From contig CM055097.1 of assembly GCA_029204225.1 (NCBI GenBank), positions 29,603,785-29,667,784 of the forward strand: 64,000 bases of DNA, written 5' to 3'. Made by a program: the position numbers and the translations under genes. The notes below the pieces were generated by a model, which was not told where the DNA came from, did no database searches, and saw only the letters and a program-made list of their open reading frames with translations. Positions within the stretch are counted from its first letter, which is position 1, and each line of letters starts with the position of its first letter. Shown here piece by piece: positions 8,392-62,390 of this stretch. The DNA is from Diphasiastrum complanatum (Eukaryota > Streptophyta > Lycopodiopsida > Lycopodiales > Lycopodiaceae).

Positions 8392-8724
8392 GTGATTTTT
8401 GTAAAGATACAAGGCTTGGATCTTATTTCTCTTCATCAACTCGAAGGGGTCTATGGTTGTGAAGAAATCTTCAAGCATGACCAAGATCGAAACAAGTTGG
8501 TGGAAGAAGATTGCATGCAACAACTCGAGGTGCTTTTTCTTCAAACCAAAGAGGCCCTAGTTTGTGGGCCTATCGAAGATTTGAATGGACTCAAGATGTC
8601 ATCAAGGAGTAGGTTTGATGCTCGTCTTCAACCCTTTTATCTCAATTTTGATGGAAATTGTCATGCCATGATTGGACTAACCTCGGATTTATGTCCCATA
8701 AGGAGGTTAGAAGGCCTACCTTGA
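8392..8724 (+). mobile_element. Retroelement coding module of unknown function, shared with family A
   Basis: An open stretch of about 110 codons with no ATG at its left end. It aligns by eye with the tail of the family-A element at about 13.97-14.14 kb: both carry a G-DL-SLHQL-G-Y core, then DQD, then a conserved ED-M-Q-E block and FLQ-K. The module is not Gag, protease, integrase, RT or RNase H. It sits just upstream of the family-X LTR block, as the 3' end of an element would. It is a fossil; the module's role is unknown. Confidence 0.6.
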
Positions 8725-8740
8725 CCTATGAATCGATTAT

Positions 8741-11158: not shown

Positions 11159-11159
11159 C

Positions 11160-14100
11160 AGGAGGGTACTATAAAATTATGGATGGCAAATATATTTTAT
11201 GTTTTAGTTCATGTTTGATCAGTATCTCTTAGAGTTTGCATCTCATTTTGTATGTAGATGGTGATTTTTCTACATTGGCAAGATTGTTGGTTTGCTCTCT
11301 TTGTAACCAAAGATCAGGGACATGGATTTGGATCTTGAATGATCTGAAATCCTTCACATGGTATCTGAGCTCTTGTGTTTTAAATTATTTATGAGTCAAC
11401 CACATTTATCAAAGATTTGGAGGAGTTACCAATGCTAGAGCATGTAGATTGATTTCTACTCAAAAGTCTCCATTTTTGCATATGTAGAATTAATTTTTTG
11501 TAGGTCAAAACTCAATGTAGGTTTATATACTTGACCAATTTTGATTTCACACTTGGTTTACTGGAATTGGCTGATTTTTGGTGCATTAGAAAGGTCTCAT
11601 TGGAGGTACAAGATGATATATCAAGTTTTTAGAAACTGCATGTAGAATTTGAGATATTCAATTTTTTGTGACTGTGTCAAAACCCTAATTTTGATTGGAT
11701 CTCTAGTTTGTGAGGTTACTGAGCTTCATTTTAGTGTGTATCAATCTTATGAAGTGTAAAGAATCATTAGATTGAGGATAGATCATAGGTTGATCAAGAT
11801 TTTACTATTCTAAGTGTTGATTTTCTAGTTAGAAGTGCTAGAAGAGATTTGAGAGGTTCCATATCTTTGTGATTTCTTCTTGAGTTCATTTTTTGACATT
11901 CAAGAGAGTGCTTTGTGCATTGGAATGGGTTGTAAGAAGAATATCAGCTCATTGCAACATGGCTACAAGTGGTGGATTCATGTTAGAAGGCAATGATAGG
12001 CTTATCTCAAGTAACTATTTGTTGTGGAAAGTGAGGATGGAATCACTTCTTGAGATGCATGATGTTTTGGATATTGTTGTAGGTTTGGAGGAGAGACCAG
12101 AAACTCAACAAGATCAAACGAGGTGTGATAAGAGGGCCAAAAGTGCTCTACACATGATTAAGATGAATGTTACCAATGAGCTTCTCAAGGAGATTGGTAA
12201 GTGCACATCATCTTTGGAGGCTTGGGAAGCTTTATGAATCCAAATCTACATCAAGAGTGCTTACTCTTAGGAGGCAAATCTTTCAAAGTTTGCAAAAGAA
12301 GGAAGAGAGTACTCATGCTTTTGTTTTGAAGGTTAAAGCATTCAATGATAAGTTAGCATGTATTGATGAGAGCATTAAGGAGGTAGAACTTGTTCAAGTT
12401 ATACTTAATGGCTTGTTGGATGATCATGCTATTCTTGTTCAAAGTTTTGCTATTCAAAAGACTTTGCCAAGTATTGTGGATTTGCAAGAGATTTTGGTGA
12501 ATGAGTATAGGCTTCAATCAAGAGGAGGTGGATCTACATCAACATCTTATTATGAAGAGGAGGCTATGTTCATCAAAGGCAAGTTCAAGGGCAAAGGCAA
12601 AGGAAAGTGGTCAAAAGGACAAGATCAAGGTGAGACTTCCTCTTTTGGCAAAAAGAAAGATAAGTCTAGATTGAAATGCTTTTATTGTGGAATCAAAGGG
12701 CATTTTGCTAATGAATGTTTGAAGAAGCAAAGAGATGAAGGTAGCAAGCAAATCAACTTTACTACTAATGATGAGGATCTAGGTGGTTGTGATTCTCTTT
12801 TGATGTGTTCTTCAAGTCCAATATCAAGTGAAGGTGACAAATATTCATGGTCGATTGATAGTGGAGCTAGTTCACACATGACTAGTCACAAGGAGTTCTT
12901 TACTTCTTTGGTCACTAATGATGGAGCCAAGAAAGAAATTCACATGGCCAATGGTGGTAGGTATGTGATCGAAGGTATTGGTTCATTTTTTATTTGTCTT
13001 TCTACTAATAGGAAAGCAAGACTTGATGGTGTTCTTTACATTCCTTCACTTTTAAAGAATTTGCTAAGTGTTGGTCAAATGATAAAGAAAGAATACATGG
13101 TAAAGTTTGGTGGTGATGCTTGTTTCATTACAAAGGAAGAAATCTTGATTGCTAGGGGCAATAGACAAGGTAGACTTTTTGAGCTTGATGCTTTTGTTAT
13201 GGCCAACAAAAAGGATGGAATGGAAAAGGAGATTGGTCTCAACTTTCCAAAGTTCCCTTTTAGTATCAATAAGATTGGTGGACCTTATGCAAAGTCTAAC
13301 AAGCTTCCTTATGCTAGATCTAGGTCAAGATCTAATATGCTTCTTGGAGATGTTCATCTTTGTGCTAACTTGGCTAGTCTTGAGGATAATGATGTTTCAA
13401 TGGTTCTTCATGGCAAGTTCAAGAATGAAAAAAGTAAGGGAAGAGCTAACTTCATCAATAGTGGTGAAGGATCTTTCTTGAAAAAGATTGTTGCTAATGA
13501 TTTCTTTGATCATACGGAAAAAGATGTTGCTAGGTGCATGCATGAAGGAGGCGGTTCCTCTACATTCTTTTGTGATGAGTCCAAGAAAGTCATTTTTGCA
13601 GCAAGTGGAGTCACATGTCTTCATAAAGAGAGTAGATCAAATGGTTTTATCAAGAGGCTTTGTGAGGGAGATAGTCACAAGTCAAGAAGAAGAGAAGTAT
13701 GTGAAGAGTTCAAAGTAGGATGTACTTTGAATGATGTCATTGTGAATGATAGTGAGGAATACTCATTATCATATGAGTAATTACCTAGAACATTGAGTAG
13801 AAGTTTTTGTTTGAAAAAAGAGAGTACTTCAATCATCCTTATGTTGAAGGTACTAATCATTTTTTTCATGTCTTCTAATGTTTTTGAGGTTTCTACTTCT
13901 TATGATGCAATCATTAAGAGGGAGTCTTATGAAGGAAAGAGCAATGGAAGATTGGTTCTAAGGAAGGTCCAAGGCATGGATCTCACATCTCTTCATCAAC
14001 TCAAAGGATCCTATGATTATGAATTTATCACTAATGATCAAGATGGCAAAAATTTGGCTGGAGAAGACTACATGGAGCAAATTGAGAGGCAATTTCTTCA

Positions 14101-15696
14101 AGGCAAGGGAGATCTCATTGGTGAGCTTATTGAGGTTTTTTAGGACTCAAAAAGGCAAGTGGAAGCGACTCACTTTGCTTTACTCACATGTTTTGGAGAA
14201 TCTTCTTGTGTAGATGATGCTATGCAAGTGGATTTTGGTTCTCATGATTTTCATGCTGGAAAATCAGGTAATGGATCTGGAAAAAAAAAGTTTGTTTAAT
14301 GACTTTGATGGTCAAGAGGGAGATCAAGAGGTTGGTCTCAAAGGGCTTCAACAACACAAAAGGAAAGGTGGCAATTTGGAGCTAGTCAAGCGGATCAAAG
14401 GAGGGTCAATTGGCAAAGATGTTATGCATCTATTATTTCAGGAGTCTTTAGACTCAAGTAAGTTCAAAGTAGCAGCAAGGAAGTGTTGTTTAATTTTACT
14501 TTACTTGATCTATCTCATGTTTGAGCTATTTCATGTGAATGTGTGCAAATTGTCAAGATATGGACAAACTAGCTACATTGTCTTGCAATATCTTATTGTT
14601 GGAATTGTACTAGCATTCTTGGTTGGTTTTGCTGATGGAAATGAAGCTATTTGAGGTTCATTATGTCACTCATTCATGGCCAAGTCATCAAGTGTTGATG
14701 ATATCTTGTGGCAAGATGGAGATGGAGGCTCATTCATGGAGTTTTATGGTGGAGACATATCAAGAAACAAAAGCGTTGGAGGAGAAAAACAAGAAAATGG
14801 CCATCACTCACATTTATTGTTTGGTTGATGTAATTTTCCAAAGAGTTCAAAGTTTGAAGCATGGAGGAATCATTTCATTCAACTTCTATTTGGTTCTTCA
14901 TGTTCTAGTTATATCTTGATGTGTAAAATTGATGTAAGAAATAGTGAAGCATCCAATCTATTCTCTATATCAATTATGAAAGATACTTTAGAACCTTAGA
15001 AAGGAGATCTATACTTAGGATGGAGATCATTCTAAAGCTGGATCAAAGTAGTATGGTTAAAACTATGCCAAAACTAGTTGAAGAGGGAGTGTGAGAGATT
15101 TCAACAAGTTTAGTCATATTTTGGTAAATTGTCAATTGAGGCCAAAACTCATTTTAGACTTAGAGATAAAATTTTTGAAGTTATGTTAGTTTAAAATACA
15201 TTCAATAAACACTTTTTGAAAGTGTAGGAAAGTCGAGTTTGAGAGAGATTCAAATTTGAGCTTTGGGTACATTGAATCTAGTCCCAAAATAGTAGGGTCC
15301 TTCATATGAAAGGAAAAGCCAAGTGGCAAAATAGGGTTTGGACCTACTATATATTGTTGTAACTCGTGGAGAAAGGGATCCTCTCTCTTCTCTCTCTCAG
15401 TTCTACTACTCATTGGTGCACTCTCATGATGTTATCTTGCAATTCTATGTGTAGAATGATCATTTATTGCTATTTTTGGTTCCAACGTGTGAAATATAGT
15501 AGGGTACTGTAATTGTATGGACAACAACTATATTTTATGGTTTAGTTCATGTTTGATTAGTATCTCTTAGAGTTTGCATCTCATTTTGCATGTAGATGCT
15601 GATTTTTCTACATTGGCAGGATTGTTGGTTTGCTTTGTTTGTAACCAAATATCAGGGACATGGATTTGGATCTTGAATGATCTAAAATCCTTCACA
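11160..15696 (+). mobile_element. LTR element of family A (A1), Gag-protease plus unknown coding tail, no RT or integrase seen
   Basis: Parts in order: truncated 5' LTR about 11165-11358; primer site 11359-11372 (TGGTATCTGAGCTC); Gag from the ATG at 11959 with a CCHC knuckle (CFYCGIKGHFANEC, about 12.68 kb); protease WSIDSGASSHMTS (about 12.85 kb); a long coding tail of unknown function (about 13.2-14.15 kb and probably on to 14.9 kb); purine tract ending at 15089; 3' LTR 15090-15696. The Gag and protease are Copia-like. The region where Copia integrase and RT belong is replaced by the unknown tail, so the element looks non-autonomous. LTR overlap (about 190 bp) differs by about 8 percent by eye. 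Broken, with roughly three to five breaks. Confidence 0.85.
15090..15696 (+). repeat. 3' LTR of A1
   Basis: Begins TGTGAGAGATTTCAAC right after a GAAGAGGGAG purine tract and ends CCTTCACA; 607 bp. The last 190 bp or so match the 5' LTR remnant ending at 11358. Its first part matches the LTRs at 31313 and 47109. Confidence 0.85.
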
Positions 15697-55227: not shown

Positions 55228-58200
55228 ACATATTAGAATTCCATGCATCGCAAGTGACAAATGTCACATAGACTCTAGATGTCACTTTAGTTGTCACTTT
55301 GGAATGGATAGATGTAGTTCTACCTCGAGCTACCTCAAACTCCATAAATATGTGTAGCTCTCCTCACAATCAATGATGAAGAACCAAAGTTTTGTAGCTA
55401 CCTCATGCCATTTTGGATCTAAACTATTTTGCTTGTTATCTTTCTAGCTTTCTCTCTCTAACTCGTGTTGAAGCTAATGCTAGTACACTAAAATCTTGTA
55501 CTTTTGTTCATTCTTTGATTCATTGCTATCATAATCTAATGCTTAGCATGCTAGATTGTGGTTAAGCCATTTCTTCTGAACTAGATCTTGCTAAACAATC
55601 TAGAATCAGGTTACTGTGCTAATCACAAAGCTTAATTAAGATCAATCATACTTGTGGACATTCCCCACATGTGTGAATTCTGGAAATTTTGTCATGGTAT
55701 CAAAGCCAAATTAAGCTTTGCATGCTAACATCTCTGATTGTACAGGAAACTGAGAGCTAAATCAAGCAACAAAGTAGTTTAGCACTTTTTCTCACCTTTC
55801 TCTGAAGTGTATGTGGATCAAATCGGATTGGAACTGAATTTTCAGACCTTAAAAAAAGTAGTACGGAATTTTGGAATTTTGCACGTGTGAAAATTAGAGA
55901 TTTTCAGTCCCTTTGTTCCCCTTGCTTATAGATCCAAAGATAGTAGTGTTATAGCTTATTGGAAAGCTTATGATCTGCACTTTCCATAGAAATTGAAACC
56001 AAATCAATTTGATGTGTCTAGCAAGAGTTATAAGCTCTTAAAGAGGATAGGGATAGGTCCAAAATCCGAGTGACCGCATTTTGATTTGATTCAATCTTGC
56101 TTTGTTTTGAATCCATTGTTTTGAGCATCCTACACAAAAAACTGAAGATCAAGACTGAGTTTGAAGTAATGAACACTTTTTGAGCCTTCTGAGAGTCAAT
56201 TGTGTTTTCTTTTGAAGCATTTCACACGTGCCAAAAAGTAGGATTCAAACTAGCCAAAGTGTCTCAATCCACTTTGTGTGTCTGATCTAGATAGCTTGTT
56301 TTGTGGAATATTTGAGAGTCATCTCAAATATAGTTGCAAGTATTTCACATAAGAAGGTAGTACATCCTTGAAAATACCTATAGTGAAAGAGAGCAGCAAT
56401 TTTAAGTCTAATTGGAACAAGCTCAAACATATCTCAGTCCAATAACTAAGAAGTTTTCATTAAAATGGCATCTCAGGGTGGATATCTTCTAGAAGCCAGT
56501 GAAAGACTAAACACTTCTAATTACTCAATTTGGAGGTTCAAAATGGAGTCTATCTTGATACTCCAGGATGTTATGGATATTGTGCTTGGTGTTGAGGAGG
56601 AGCCTCAAACATAGGCTAAAATTTTTAACTACAAGAAAAGAGCTAGAATGGCTTTACATTTCATTAAGATGAATGTATCTAATGAAATTTTGAGAGAGAT
56701 AGGATCTTGCACTACAGCCAAAGAAGCTTGGGATGCACTAAAGACCATCTATGAAACAAAGAATACTTCTAAAATTCTCACTCTTAGGAATCAGATTTTT
56801 CAAAGTGAAGAGAGCGCATCTAACTATGTTCTGAGAATTAAAGATTTACATAGAGAGCTTTCTTGTGTTGGTGTTACCATTAACCAAGATGAGCTAGTTC
56901 AAGTCATACTGAATGGCTTGAGAGATGATTATGATAATCTTGTTCAGTCTTTTGCTATTAAAGAGGAGTTGCCTAATCTAGAAACTCTCCAAGGAATTCT
57001 TATTTCTGAAGAAGGTAGACAAAGCTATAAACTCTCTAGGATGAACAAACTCGAGCATGGTGGAAGTGACAAAGCCCTCTTTGTCAAAGGCAAGCAGAAA
57101 GGAAGCAGTAAGAATCAGTTCTCTCAAGCATCCAACAAAGACAAGGCCAAAGATCGAGACAAAGATGGTGAAGAGGATGATACATCTCATCCTTCTAACT
57201 CAAAGACCAAGAAGAAGAAAGTGAAGTGTTTCTTCTGTGGCAAGAAGGGGCACTATGCCTCTAATTGCTTCAAGAAGAAAAACCAACTCAAGCAAGCTAA
57301 TCTCTCCAAAGATATTGAAGAAGATTCTGTTGCAAGTGATGGAGAAGGATCACTTATGGTGTCCAGTTTTTCTTCATCACTTTTCAAGAATGATGGAGCT
57401 TGGTACATAGACAATGGAGCCTCTTCACATATGTGCTGTTCAAAGGAGTAATTTGACTCAATCTTACCTTTCAAAGGACTCAAGAGATCTATTTACACAA
57501 CGCTGATCATGAGTGCCCAATAGAAGGAATTGGCAACATTCCATTAGAACTTGCTTCTTCAAAATTTCTTGCACTTTCTAATGTTCTTTTCATTCCAAAA
57601 CTCACAAAGAACTTAATTAGTGTGGGAAAGTTGCTTGATAATGGTTGTGATGTAAAGTTCAACTCCAATACTTGTTTTATCAAGAGAAAAGATGAGATCC
57701 TTGTTGATGGAACTAGATGTGGTGGAATTTTTAAGTTGAATTCTTATGAGAATGCAAACCTTTGTGAAGTTGCTTTGTTATCTAAGGAGGAGTTTTGGCA
57801 TAGAAGGTTGGGTCATCCTAAATTTAAATCTATGTCTTCTATGGTTAAGAAGGTGAAGGCTATTGGTTTTCCAAAATCTCTTTCTAAAGATTTCAAGCCT
57901 TGTGAGGCTTGTGCCATTGCAAAGTCACATAGAAAGCCATATCAGAAGTCTTTTATAAAGACTACTCATCCTTTGGAGCTTATACACTTAGATGTAAATT
58001 TTTCCTCTTCTAAAAGTACTGGTGGTGCAACATGTTTTGTCACCTTTATTGATGACTTTACTAGATATACCTGGATGTATCTACTTTCTTCAAAGGCAAT
58101 GGTTTCTGATCACTTCCTAATCTTCAAAGCTTATGTTGAGAAACAGTTTTCTTTTAAAGTTAAAGCTTTAAGATGTGATGGAGGAGGTGAATACATCTCC

Positions 58201-61200
58201 AACAAGTTTCATGAGTACTGTGAAGGCGAAGGAATAAAAAGAGAGTTTTCTTGTGCTTATTCTCCATCTCAAAATGGAGTAGCTAAGAGGAAAAACAGAT
58301 CTTTATGTGAATGTGCTAAAGCAATTCGAATAGCAGCTTCTTTGCCTATTGATTATTGGGGTGAAGCTATAAATTGTGCAAACTATTTGTGCAATAGATT
58401 ACCTCACAATGCACTTGCTGGAAAATCACCTTTTGAAGTCTTGTTTAAGAAGAAACCTAAGGTAGATCGCCTTAGAGTTTTTGGTTGTGCTTGCTTTGTT
58501 AATGTGCCCTTGGAAACAAGGAAAAGAGATGATCCTAATTCTATTAAAGGGATCATGGTTGGATATGCATCCAACAAGAAAGCTTACAGAATATATGTTC
58601 CCTCTACCTCAACTACAATTGAGAGTAGAGATGTTATATTCCATGAAGATCAAAAATACATTCTTGAGGAGGCCGAGTTCAAAGATTCTCACAAAGATAC
58701 TCCAATCATCACCCTTGAAGATTATCATGGAGAGATGGGGCCGAGAATTGAGAAGGAGTCACCTCGAATCTTTTCACCAAGGAGATCTCAAAGAGAAAGA
58801 TCCGAGTCTAGAAGGCTTACCTATGAAGATAGAGGCAAGCAAGTGGAAATCAACTCCACTAATTATGCCTATTTTATTTCTCATGAGGAGCCGAAGGATG
58901 TATATGATGCACTCAACTCAAAGGAATGGTATCTTGCCATGAAGGAGGAATATGAAGCTTTGATGGCCAATAAGACATGGGAGCTTGTGGATCTTCCATC
59001 CAACAAGCACATCATTGGTTGCAAGTGGGTTTTTCGAGTGAAGTATAATCAAGATGGCACAATCAACAAGTACAAGGCTAGGCTTTGTGCTCAAGGTTGT
59101 GCTCAAGTTTATGGACTTGATTATGAGGAGACCTTTGCCCCAGTTGCAAAGATGATATCAATTAGAATCATAATTTCTCTTGCTTGTTTTTTCAATTGGC
59201 AAGTTCTTCAACTAGATGTCTCTAATGCATTTCTAAATGGGTATCTAGAAGAAGAGATTTATATGGATCAGCCTATTGGGTTCATCCATGATAAAGAAAA
59301 ATTTTGCTTGCTCTTCAAAAGTTTATATGGATTGAAGCAAGCTCCAAGGTCATGGTATTCTCGACTTAACACCTTTCTTGAGTCACTAGGATTTAATCTT
59401 AGTAACTATGATCCTTCCTTATATGTCACATTTTTTGATAAAGATATTACCATTCTTCTTATTTATGTTGATGATATCATTTTGATAGGAAGTTGTATCA
59501 AGTTAGTTGAGGAAACCAAGATTGCACTTGGAAAAGAGTTCAAGATGCAAGATTTTGGAAAAATTCACTATATTCTAGGATTAGAGATTGACTTTCTTAA
59601 AGATAAAGCTTTTGTATGTCAATCCAGGTATGCTCTTTCAATGATAACGAAGTTCAATATGTTGAATTGTAAGAGTATAGAAACACCTATGGAGCAAAAT
59701 GTAAAGGATTCTAACAAAGGTGATGAAAGATCCTTTGTGGACATCACACTTTTTAGAAGTCTTATAGGCTCCTTAATTTGGCTCACAATAACTAGACCTG
59801 ACATAAGCTTTAGTGTTCATAAGTTGAGCCAGGCTATGCAAAATCCTACTATCTATCATTGGAAAATGGCCAAGAGAGTGCTTAGATATATATCTTCAAC
59901 TTTTGATTTTAGTTTATTGTATAAAAGTGAAGATCTTTCTATTATTGGTTATTCTGACTCGGATTTTGCAAGTGATAGAGCAGATCAAAAATCTACAAGT
60001 GCTTATGTCATATATCTTGGAGGAAACTTGATATCTTGGCTTTCCAAAAAGCAAGATACTGTATCACTCTCATCATGCAAAGCTGAGTACAAGGCACTCA
60101 CTACAATAACAAAGGAAGTGCTTTGGATCAAGAGGCTACTAGTGGAACTAAAGATAATCTTGAAAGAGGATCTACCTATGATCATGTGTGACAACATTTC
60201 AGCCCAAGCCCTTGCCAACAACCCGATATTCCATGCAAGGAGCAAGCATATCGAAGTTGCACATCACTTCGTGAGAGAGAAGCTCATTGGAGGGGAAATC
60301 AATTTGGAAACACATCATCTTGTATTGCTGATATGCTCACCAAACCTTTGAGCAAAAGTTCCTTCATCAAGCATAGAGCCAATCTTGGAGTTATACCAAG
60401 ATCCATGTTCAAATCTATATAGATTATTTTTAGGAGGAGTGTTAAAATCGGAAAAACAAATCATATTGATTTCTTGGCTTGCTACAAATGTTGTACCATG
60501 CAAGTATGTAGCTCATAAATGCAAAATGCCAAGTTTGGCCTACATAAAACTCGAGCTACATGGTTATGTAATGTCTAGTTTGAAGAATACAACTTGCATA
60601 TAGTTTGTAGACATAGAATTGGCAAATTCATGCTTGTAGAAACTCGTGGCAATTCACATGCATTAATTGTAAGTGATCCATAGTGACATGCAAGACATGC
60701 ACAAAGTGTAATGGACACATGCATGATGATTTGTACTTTGTTAGTTAGAACTAGTACACTTGTAAAGAGTTGGCAGAATTCCATGCATGGCAAGTGACAA
60801 ATGTCACATAGACTCTAGATGTCACTTTAGTTGTCATTTTGGAATGGATAGATGTGGTTCTACCTCGAGCTACCTCAAACTCCATAAATATATGTAGCTC
60901 TCCTCATAGTCAATGATGAAGAACCAAAGTTTTGTAGCTACCTCATGCCATTTTGGATCTAAACTATTTTGCTTGTTATCTTTCTAGCTTTCTCTCTCTA
61001 ACTCGTGTTGAAGCTAATGCTAATACACTAAAATCTTGTACTTTTGTTCATTCTTTGATTCATTGCGATCATAATCTGATGCTTAGCATGCTAGATTGTG
61101 GTTAAGCCATTTCTTCTAAACTAGATCTTGCTAAACAATCTGGAATCAGGTTACTGTGCTAATCAAAAAGCTTAATTAGGATCAATCATACTTGTGGACA

Positions 61201-61234
61201 TTCCCCACACATGTGAATTATGGAAATTTTTTCA
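55228..61234 (+). mobile_element. Copia element C1, the most complete copy in the window
   Basis: 5' LTR 55228-55694 (its first third is missing), primer site TGGTATCAAAGCC at 55695, Gag from 56465 (MASQGGYLLEASERL, knuckle CFFCGKKGHYASNC near 57.24 kb), protease WYIDNGASSHM (57.4 kb), integrase from about 57.8 kb (HRRLGHP, LIHLDVN, CDGGGEY), RT from about 58.9 kb (LDVSNAFLNG, YVDDI), RNase H to about 60.35 kb (SDSDFASDRADQKST, CDNISAQ), purine tract TAGGAGGAG, 3' LTR 60440-61234 (795 bp). Order PR-INT-RT-RH is Copia. Shared LTR sequence differs at about 18 of 460 positions by eye, the youngest estimate here. Nearly whole, with about three breaks, so not an intact element. Nested in D. Confidence 0.93.
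60440..61234 (+). repeat. 3' LTR of C1
   Basis: TGTTAAAATCGG...GAAATTTTTTCA, 795 bp, about the size of the C2 LTR (34903-35696), to which it is homologous throughout. Confidence 0.92.
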
Positions 61235-62390
61235 ATCAAAACATCTATAGCCCTTCACACGATCATCATATCCTAGGAATATACACTTGATAGCTTTCAC
61301 ATCAAGCTTACGTCTCTCTTCCTCAGGAATGTGTACAAAGGCCTTACATCCAAAGATTGGCAAGTGCTTAACCTTTGGATTCTTCTTTGTGAATGCCTCC
61401 TCAATTGTTATCTTTGGTATGGCAATGGTGGGACTTCTATTTTGAAGATAGGTTGCCGTACTGCGTGCTTCTGACCAAAAATCTTCTGGTAGTTTCATCT
61501 CAGCTAGCATAGATCTGGCACATTCCACAATCGTACGATTCTTGCACTCATCTACACCATTTAGAGCAGGAGTATGAGCTTGCGTAAATTGTCTTTTGAT
61601 CCCACATTGATCACATAGATCATTGAAGTCGTTAGACTTGAACTCACCTCCACTATCTGATCTTAGAACTTTGATCTTCTTACTTGTCTGAATTTTGACC
61701 AATGCTTTACCTAAGGACATAGTCCTCATAGGCCCGCATAAATATGTGTGGATCAAATCCAGGATGTTCTTTGCCCTTGCAACAACACTTTATTGAATTT
61801 CTCTCGATGTTGCTTCCCATACACACATGATTTGCACATCGACTTCAAAGGTTGGCAATCTTTCTCTTGATGTTATTCCACTCACAAACATCTGATAAGG
61901 TTCTACAATGCAGCACAATGCATTGTGCACCAGCTCCACATCACGTATGCGCTCACCAATAGAGTGCAATTCATCCCTCATTGTCTTGATTCTGGTCATG
62001 TACGTCTGAATGTGCTCTCCTTGTTCCATGTGAACCCTATTCAGTTTTGACTTCATGATCCTTGATGGATTTGACATCTCAAACTGCTCCTTTAGCATCC
62101 CATGCCTATCTGGGTGTAACAGCATCACAAATGTGGGTAATGATGTGATCCTTCACTGACAAGTTAATAAAGGTCAAAGCTTTTCTCACTTTCTTATCGA
62201 ACACTTGGATGTCCGCTTCATTTGACGGTCTTCTCTCATCACCTGTGACGACATCCCACACGTCTTTTTCCATTAGTAGGTTTTTCATTTTGAACTTCCA
62301 CTCTGTATAGTTGGAAATCCCGTCAAATTTGTTACTTTCACTCAAAATGGACTCTCCCATGTTTACCATCCCAAAACTGCTTAAGTACAA

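Follow-up and report, generated by a model that had tools for sequence, protein, structure and literature searches.

Gag-bearing non-autonomous long terminal repeat (LTR) retrotransposons are already known, and family A, the Copia-type element of the lycopod Diphasiastrum complanatum analyzed here, is a Copia variant of that kind. Family A was found in a stretch of 64,000 nucleotides (nt) of contig CM055097.1 (assembly GCA_029204225.1, positions 29,603,785 to 29,667,784 of the forward strand), hereafter called the window, from whose first letter coordinates are counted. RLG_Quinta of einkorn wheat, a non-autonomous LTR element, has one open reading frame (ORF) consisting of GAG and a domain of unknown function (PMC11302176; this and the other published work is cited from excerpts of the papers). 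Like family A, it combines Gag and a further coding part in a single ORF, and replication via an autonomous partner has been proposed for it (PMC11302176). The semi-autonomous RLG_Sabrina of wheat resembles family A in carrying GAG and proteinase without reverse transcriptase (RT) and integrase (PMC9744471), and the TR-GAG elements resemble it as non-autonomous elements with a GAG ORF between two LTRs, some of them mobile (PMC9784723). Non-autonomous RLC_Angela of wheat is, like family A, a Copia element with a decayed coding region that is still spreading (PMC9744471). Finally, pol-less Athila elements of Arabidopsis also comprise non-autonomous copies with intact ORFs, the Athila ORFs being under purifying selection (PMC2410132).

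The account that we favor, and consider likely overall, is that family A is a recently active gag-protease Copia element mobilized in trans, with a dead pol and a frame that was kept open. A preliminary description, made from the letters of the window, had reported a long coding tail after a Copia-like Gag and protease, followed directly by a polypurine tract (PPT) and the element's own LTR. This was confirmed, with corrections (Table 1): Pfam detected a copia-type gag, a CCHC zinc knuckle and, as a Pol_BBD match, the protease region, and no credible match in the tail. The tail spans about 13211 to the LTR, and the interval 12900-14920 given for it originally covers the protease and most of the tail.

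For the genome-wide search (1.74 Gb, 5176 contigs), 951 bases of the window tail served as query. Of 2712 first-look candidates, a figure that is not a copy number, 40 were scored as matches; one of them is the window's own copy, and the remaining 39 are 94-95% identical to the query. The 38 copies fetched are those closest to the window tail piece, and older or tail-less copies are under-sampled among them. In 12 of the 38, a single ORF of 1088-1203 amino acids (aa) starts just before the gag ATG, runs through gag and tail, and ends at a TGA formed by nt 3-5 of the 3' LTR. By comparison with the 1203 codons of copy L018, the longest forward ORF over 500 shuffles of its internal region had 152 codons. 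This substantiated the proposed non-autonomous family, whose many copies carry a coding tail of their own.

LTR pairs were measured in 21 copies, the first 27 LTR bases being omitted. Nine pairs were identical over 627 aligned bases and two had one difference; these 11 copies (626-627/627) are all ORF-intact and form one clade. Family A therefore transposed recently. The twelfth intact copy, L032, is older (LTRs 602/615). Of 19 copies examined, 17 have perfect 5-bp target duplications; 5' LTRs are 652-656 nt long, and the primer binding site (PBS) and the PPT are preserved with few changes. The terminal features of Ty1/copia elements are thus present (TG...CA LTRs, PPT, 5-bp target duplication), together with a PBS, TGGTATCAGAGC in other family A copies, which we take to be of the initiator-Met tRNA type. 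A functional integrase-RT-RNase H series was not present in family A, which has no more than an integrase relic followed by an RT relic. Given pol relics and no working pol, family A is a non-autonomous Ty1/copia derivative, and it agrees with the description of Gag-encoding non-autonomous elements in that gag is intact, RT and integrase are absent, and replication continues. Among the young copies, 171- and 174-nt segments are variably present or absent, giving in-frame length variants in the tails of L016, L018, and L033 (aa 823-880 and 1012-1070); the combinations perhaps arose from template switching. In the copy L041 (C7), a PBS-like TGGTATCAAAGCTC directly follows the 3' LTR, as in tandem elements with a shared LTR.

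The tail had been said to match no retroelement domain. Over its integrase and RT parts, it is almost certainly the element's own pol, decayed past ordinary detection, as judged from profile comparisons. Standard searches gave nothing credible. Five window tail pieces matched no Pfam family at an expectation value (E)≤1, and the whole L018 ORF matched gag-type, zinc-knuckle and Pol_BBD families only; of four L018 tail pieces searched at E≤10, three gave nothing and one a spurious match (E 0.14). Against the PDB, a window tail piece had no match, and the L018 tail had two only, neither credible (E 0.24 and 3). A plasmid collection, whose search has no bearing on the tail, also yielded no match.

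As a yardstick, we used a relative of family A in the window (56615-60351) that has gag, integrase, and RT domains and whose gag and protease can be aligned to family A residues 64-429. Two tail pieces stood out pairwise against its pol, in pol order: the integrase piece with a z score of 4.7 (50 shuffles) and a chosen RT piece with a score of 83 (maximum 74 of 300 shuffles). With hhalign, the integrase relic aligned to pol 155-190 at a score of 20.8, compared to a maximum of 17.6 in 30 shuffles. Diverged sister copies were then used as a bridge (L051, which is window 8404-8730, L052, and L053, later L059-L066). An RT-part profile built from L018 and fragments of L051, L052, L053, and L054 scored 44.1 (whole) and 45.1 (core) against the pol profile, and none of 200 column shuffles reached either value (maximum 24.4 and 26.9). 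The reversed profile scored 13.9. The core had an E of 1.1e-5 in that one comparison, with 37% identity over 70 columns.

Single sister loci, to which the following E-values apply, gave concordant alignments with pol. In L052, 'PYTRYTTKSKVPLEIVHYDVHYAS' aligns to integrase 'PFSKSSIKTTHPLELIHSDVHFSS' (E 6e-4), with 'WQRRRCH' opposite 'WHRRLGH' inside a longer match, and its RT N-terminal region aligns at E 0.002. The integrase piece of L063 reached E 1.4e-4, and 'YLNFDQNHNIYLLFYDGDIVFT' of L060 aligns to 'YLKFDGSNIVILLIYVDDIILS' (E 0.016). The pol-aligned parts of the tail are aa 457-492 (integrase) and about 713-790 (RT), in pol order, and both relics in L018 share the gag-protease frame. The phrase ARSRSRSN, cited originally from a tail said to match no retroelement domain, sits in the integrase relic. 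Of the two outcomes that the preliminary description had named as refuting its proposal, a match of the tail to a degraded integrase and RT was obtained; the other, lack of a second copy of the tail, was not.

Several results count against this derivation. The whole tail scored 84 pairwise against the yardstick pol, within the range of shuffles (maximum 93 of 200), and a two-sequence hidden Markov model (HMM) of pol gave a non-significant E of 0.37 with the tail, though at rank 1 of 502. With family A rows alone, only one of seven pieces (integrase) exceeded 30 shuffles, and the 660-800 piece remained at 17.4 versus a shuffle maximum of 22.0. A pol-tail match below E 0.05 was obtained in only 3 of 11 sister loci (L052, L060, and L063); L064 and L065 gave 0.10 and 0.29, L051 and L053 were above 0.5, and L059, L061, L062, and L066 had no match at E 0.5. 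In the piecewise profile comparison with pol, neither an RNase H relic nor any pol match in aa 500-660 and 880-1203 was detected.

These latter segments are what is left for a captured host gene fragment, the second origin proposed in the preliminary description. The tail has no Pfam match, and pol homology was not detected in aa 500-660 and 880-1203, the host libraries searched being Pfam and PDB only; on the other hand, integrase and RT relics occupy aa 457-492 and about 713-790, in pol order and in frame, so that capture was not borne out for the traceable part. We consider it very unlikely for the rest. At the RT site, YDGD replaces YVDD both in family A and in the old sister L060; the enzyme was therefore probably dead, and RT lost, before the two split.

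For the analysis of the frame, 36 rows were aligned, namely 35 fetched copies and the window copy. The near-duplicates L013, L024, and L039 were dropped, L025/L036 and other close pairs were retained, and columns were masked where local identity to L018 fell below 80%. All five tail indel events common to at least three copies are in frame (3, 9, 9, 171, and 174 nt), versus 6 of 35 private ones (p 7e-4); the 174-nt indel is one event, though split by the aligner into 39, 63, and 72. Shared indels in the leader and behind the ORF are in frame in 3 of 18 cases (p 0.002 versus five of five in the tail). Over every row, 10 of the 15 tail indels in at least two copies are in frame (p 0.002). Tail stops in at least two rows numbered 3, versus 11.6 expected from the mutation spectrum (P 0.003), and none occurs across the 11 young copies. 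These data, chiefly the in-frame indels in a small sample nearest the window, would fit selection for an open frame, and the stop depletion points weakly in the same direction.

Other counts speak against such selection. Five of the 15 tail indels in at least two copies, from two copy pairs, shift the frame. Private stops amount to 15 per 384 changes, a rate at which 8.2 shared stops would be expected and the depletion is weaker (P 0.04). In at least three rows, 3 stops compare with 4.9 by the private rate (P 0.28), or give P 0.09 by the spectrum model. Stop depletion had p 0.13 by Fisher's test, and tree-based tests of internal versus terminal branches were not significant (tail stops p 0.12). 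In view of the weaker depletion relative to private stops, and of a gag constraint confined to the first 100 codons (see below), we put selection for the open frame at no more than an even chance.

A plain relic, with masters whose frame escaped damage by chance or through gene conversion between young copies and with a passive tail under no selection, is quite possible, though we lean away from it. Amino-acid change in the tail is near neutral throughout, older groups share stops (four internal tail nonsense changes, three in 2 copies and one in a 4-copy group), the stop depletion is weak with private stops as baseline, and non-autonomous Angela Copia elements of wheat spread with fully degenerate frames (PMC9744471). 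Such a relic would not be expected to preserve the frame in five of five indel events in at least three copies, nor to leave the older L032 fully open too. Moreover, with 183 changes in the 335 mapped codons after the sister split, 7 to 10 stops would be predicted, depending on whether the private or the modelled rate is used; L018 contains none.

The amino-acid sequence of the tail, in contrast to that of gag, appears to have drifted. Changes in at least two of the 36 rows were 162 nonsynonymous (N) and 49 synonymous (S) in the tail, about the neutral N/S expectation of 3.15 from the singleton spectrum (p 0.81), versus 53/28 in gag (p 0.04). In at least three rows, the counts were 94/32 in the tail, 26/19 in gag (p 0.009), and 6/4 in the protease (gag versus tail p 0.04). 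Along the branches leading to the young clade, with the window copy as root, the tail acquired 63 N, 15 S, and 0 stops, gag 5/10, and the protease 4/1 (gag versus tail p 5e-4). Since the old-sister split, counted in codons covered by at least two fragments only, the tail shows 144 N/39 S over the 335 mapped codons and the protease 11/4 over 61. Taken with the indels, on which this reading chiefly depends, the pattern would be that of a frame that is kept while its amino acids change almost neutrally.

Some of the comparisons do not favor it. Protease changes in at least two rows (21/10, p 0.20) show no clear constraint either, and the gag deficit is confined to codons 9-108 (16/15, p 0.005), with 109-208 and 209-308 neutral. 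The old-sister tail count adds 2 stop steps, within multiply changed codons. Fixed differences lean toward drift of the tail as well but were not significant (tail 19 N/5 S versus gag 4/5, p 0.09; at a stricter threshold 14/4 versus 4/3, p 0.36). Pairwise dN/dS (ratio of nonsynonymous to synonymous substitution rates) of the tail was 0.60-0.86 against L051-L054 and L050, below 1. Corresponding values were 0.43 (L050), 0.76 (L052, 36 codons), and 0.18 (window relative, synonymous sites near saturation) for gag, and 0.37 (L052), 0.85 (L053), 0.49 (L050), and 0.36 (window relative) for the protease.

The pairwise values somewhat below 1, the ORF intact in 11 of 11 young copies, and the in-frame length variants are what a working private protein would show, for instance a Gag-fused structural or accessory part selected for its sequence. 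Neither over all rows nor after the old-sister split does the tail N/S fall below neutral; the slices 809-908 (31/14) and 1109-1203 (11/5), which are among the lowest, lack significance, and no 100-codon tail slice has a clear deficit of amino-acid change. Of the private protein suggested at the outset, only the open frame stands; we regard a working protein as unlikely. SIRE/Maximus Copia elements carry an envelope-like third ORF, and retention of such an ORF after pol loss could be imagined for family A, as the hydrophobic stretch SYIVLQYLIVGVVLAFLAGFADG, spotted by eye, lies late in the tail. However, the tail starts with integrase and RT relics, and its hydrophobic part is without clear constraint (909-1008: 26 N/10 S), making an envelope-like origin the least probable of the explanations considered.

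How family A could move and why its frame might stay open can be outlined as follows. It has retained open frames for Gag and protease, and no working pol could be detected. With these two frames available, the particles may be family A's own, with integrase and RT supplied from another element. After pol loss, the tail amino acids would have drifted near the neutral rate, and lineages with a frame open up to the LTR stop would have given rise to the young copies. The genomic RNA would also be the Gag-protease mRNA and might fare better if translated almost up to its 3' end; with early termination, more than 2 kb of the RNA would go untranslated and attract decay. The tail would then be a 'translated spacer' of about 660-770 codons, with openness its sole selected property and ribosomes clearing the RNA to the LTR, an idea we put forward only tentatively. 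Long 3' untranslated regions (UTRs) have been reported as a decay trigger in plants (title cited within PMC6009662). In moss, long 3' UTRs did not predict decay (PMC6009662), which weighs against the mechanism and for which reason avoidance of mRNA decay as the cause of the open frame seems rather doubtful.

An autonomous partner was not found in pattern searches for the PPT-LTR junction: among the 6 places read, of 11 returned in all (4 from the stricter search), there was no autonomous element; a reversed-pattern control of the wider search gave 8. L049 and L055, with RT beside a family A PPT-LTR, were rejected as nested insertions with about 240 nt of LTR. The gag-protease relative L056 continues into a different Copia, L057 is a family A 3' end adjoining another Copia, and L058 is unrelated. 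L047 and L048 (C7:40779646 and C11:30833801) have a family A-like PPT and LTR adjoining a different protease-like internal ORF and are perhaps a second non-autonomous family with similar termini. L050 is a rearranged family A copy. The genome is very Copia-rich: the Copia RT family RVT_2 gave 119,353 first-look candidates genome-wide (150 scored).

The features of the window are collected in Table 1. The window copy of family A (11159-15696) is decayed, and its truncated 5' LTR adjoins another Copia. Stops ending at 13780 and 14143 interrupt its tail frame, as does a deletion at about 14157-14159. According to the alignment to L018, the segment corresponding to L018 aa 748-832 is missing, and the YGLK...YDGD part of the RT relic, seen in other copies, is deleted. 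About 2.4 kb upstream of family A, a diverged tail relative (RT-relic part; 8404..8730, + strand) lies in a 114-codon ORF. It is 71.6% identical to the L018 tail at the DNA level and 49% at the aa level (E 1e-16), and the best other scored genome matches of this fragment are only 82% and 77% alike. The Copia element used as yardstick is a clade relative of family A and lies within 55235-61236. Repeated parts of its LTRs were located at 55235-55534 and 60775-61074; its 5' LTR is partial, and its 3' LTR begins with TGTTAAAATC at about 60440, as located by eye.

Table 1. Features of the family A copy and of its Copia relative in the window
Feature	Position	Strand	Basis
5' LTR remnant, last 200 nt only	11159..11358	+	Direct repeat with 3' LTR; alignment to L018
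PBS TGGTATCTGAGC	11359..11370	+	Sequence; other copies
gag, frameshifted near 12235 in the window copy	11959..12847	+	Pfam Retrotran_gag_2, zf-CCHC
Zinc knuckle within gag	12674-12718	+	Pfam zf-CCHC
Protease region, including DSGASSHM	12848..13096	+	Pfam Pol_BBD match, E 1.7e-21
Coding tail, gag-protease frame, in part decayed pol	13211..15089	+	ORFs; alignment to L018; continuous ORF in other copies
Integrase relic AKSNKLPYARSRSRSNMLLGDVHLCANLASLED	13289..13396	+	hhalign to pol 155-190; sister L052 to pol
RT relic, N-terminal part	13916..14143	+	Profile with sister fragments versus pol; 0 of 200 shuffles as high
PPT GAAGAGGGAG	15080..15089	+	Sequence; identical or one base off in other listed copies
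3' LTR, TG...CA, 607 nt	15090..15696	+	Alignment; other copies
Copia relative, gag, integrase, and RT, two ORFs	56615..60351	+	Pfam; alignment to family A; repeats

For an open but unconstrained pol remnant, no precedent appeared among the results of the searches made in the open-licence literature. The data hint at a separable signal, a frame that is selected without its protein being selected. If this is true, even a long ORF that is intact in an active element may lack a functional protein product, and if a larger sample agrees, it would provide a direct test of translation and RNA surveillance shaping retroelement evolution. Should the translated spacer be real, what persists of the dead pol in a mobile element would be its reading frame and not a protein, and elements whose genomic RNA doubles as Gag mRNA could generally require an open frame.

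The described systems differ from family A in several respects. RLG_Quinta is a Gypsy element with a proposed partner (RLG_Cereba), and its unknown domain 'may have been acquired later', whereas the traceable tail of family A is, by our profiles, pol (PMC11302176). RLG_Sabrina is likewise Gypsy, and no open decayed pol frame is described for it in the excerpt (PMC9744471). RLC_Angela has numerous frameshifts and stops, whereas family A keeps gag-protease and a frame open to the LTR (PMC9744471). Beyond the TR-GAG organization, family A adds a protease and about 660-770 codons of partly decayed pol (PMC9784723). In Athila, the selected ORFs are gag or env, while constraint in family A is seen in part of gag and not in the open tail (PMC2410132). 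Gag-bearing non-autonomous elements can hold ORFs labelled 'domain of unknown function'; that of family A could be traced, through its diverged sisters, in part to a decayed pol.

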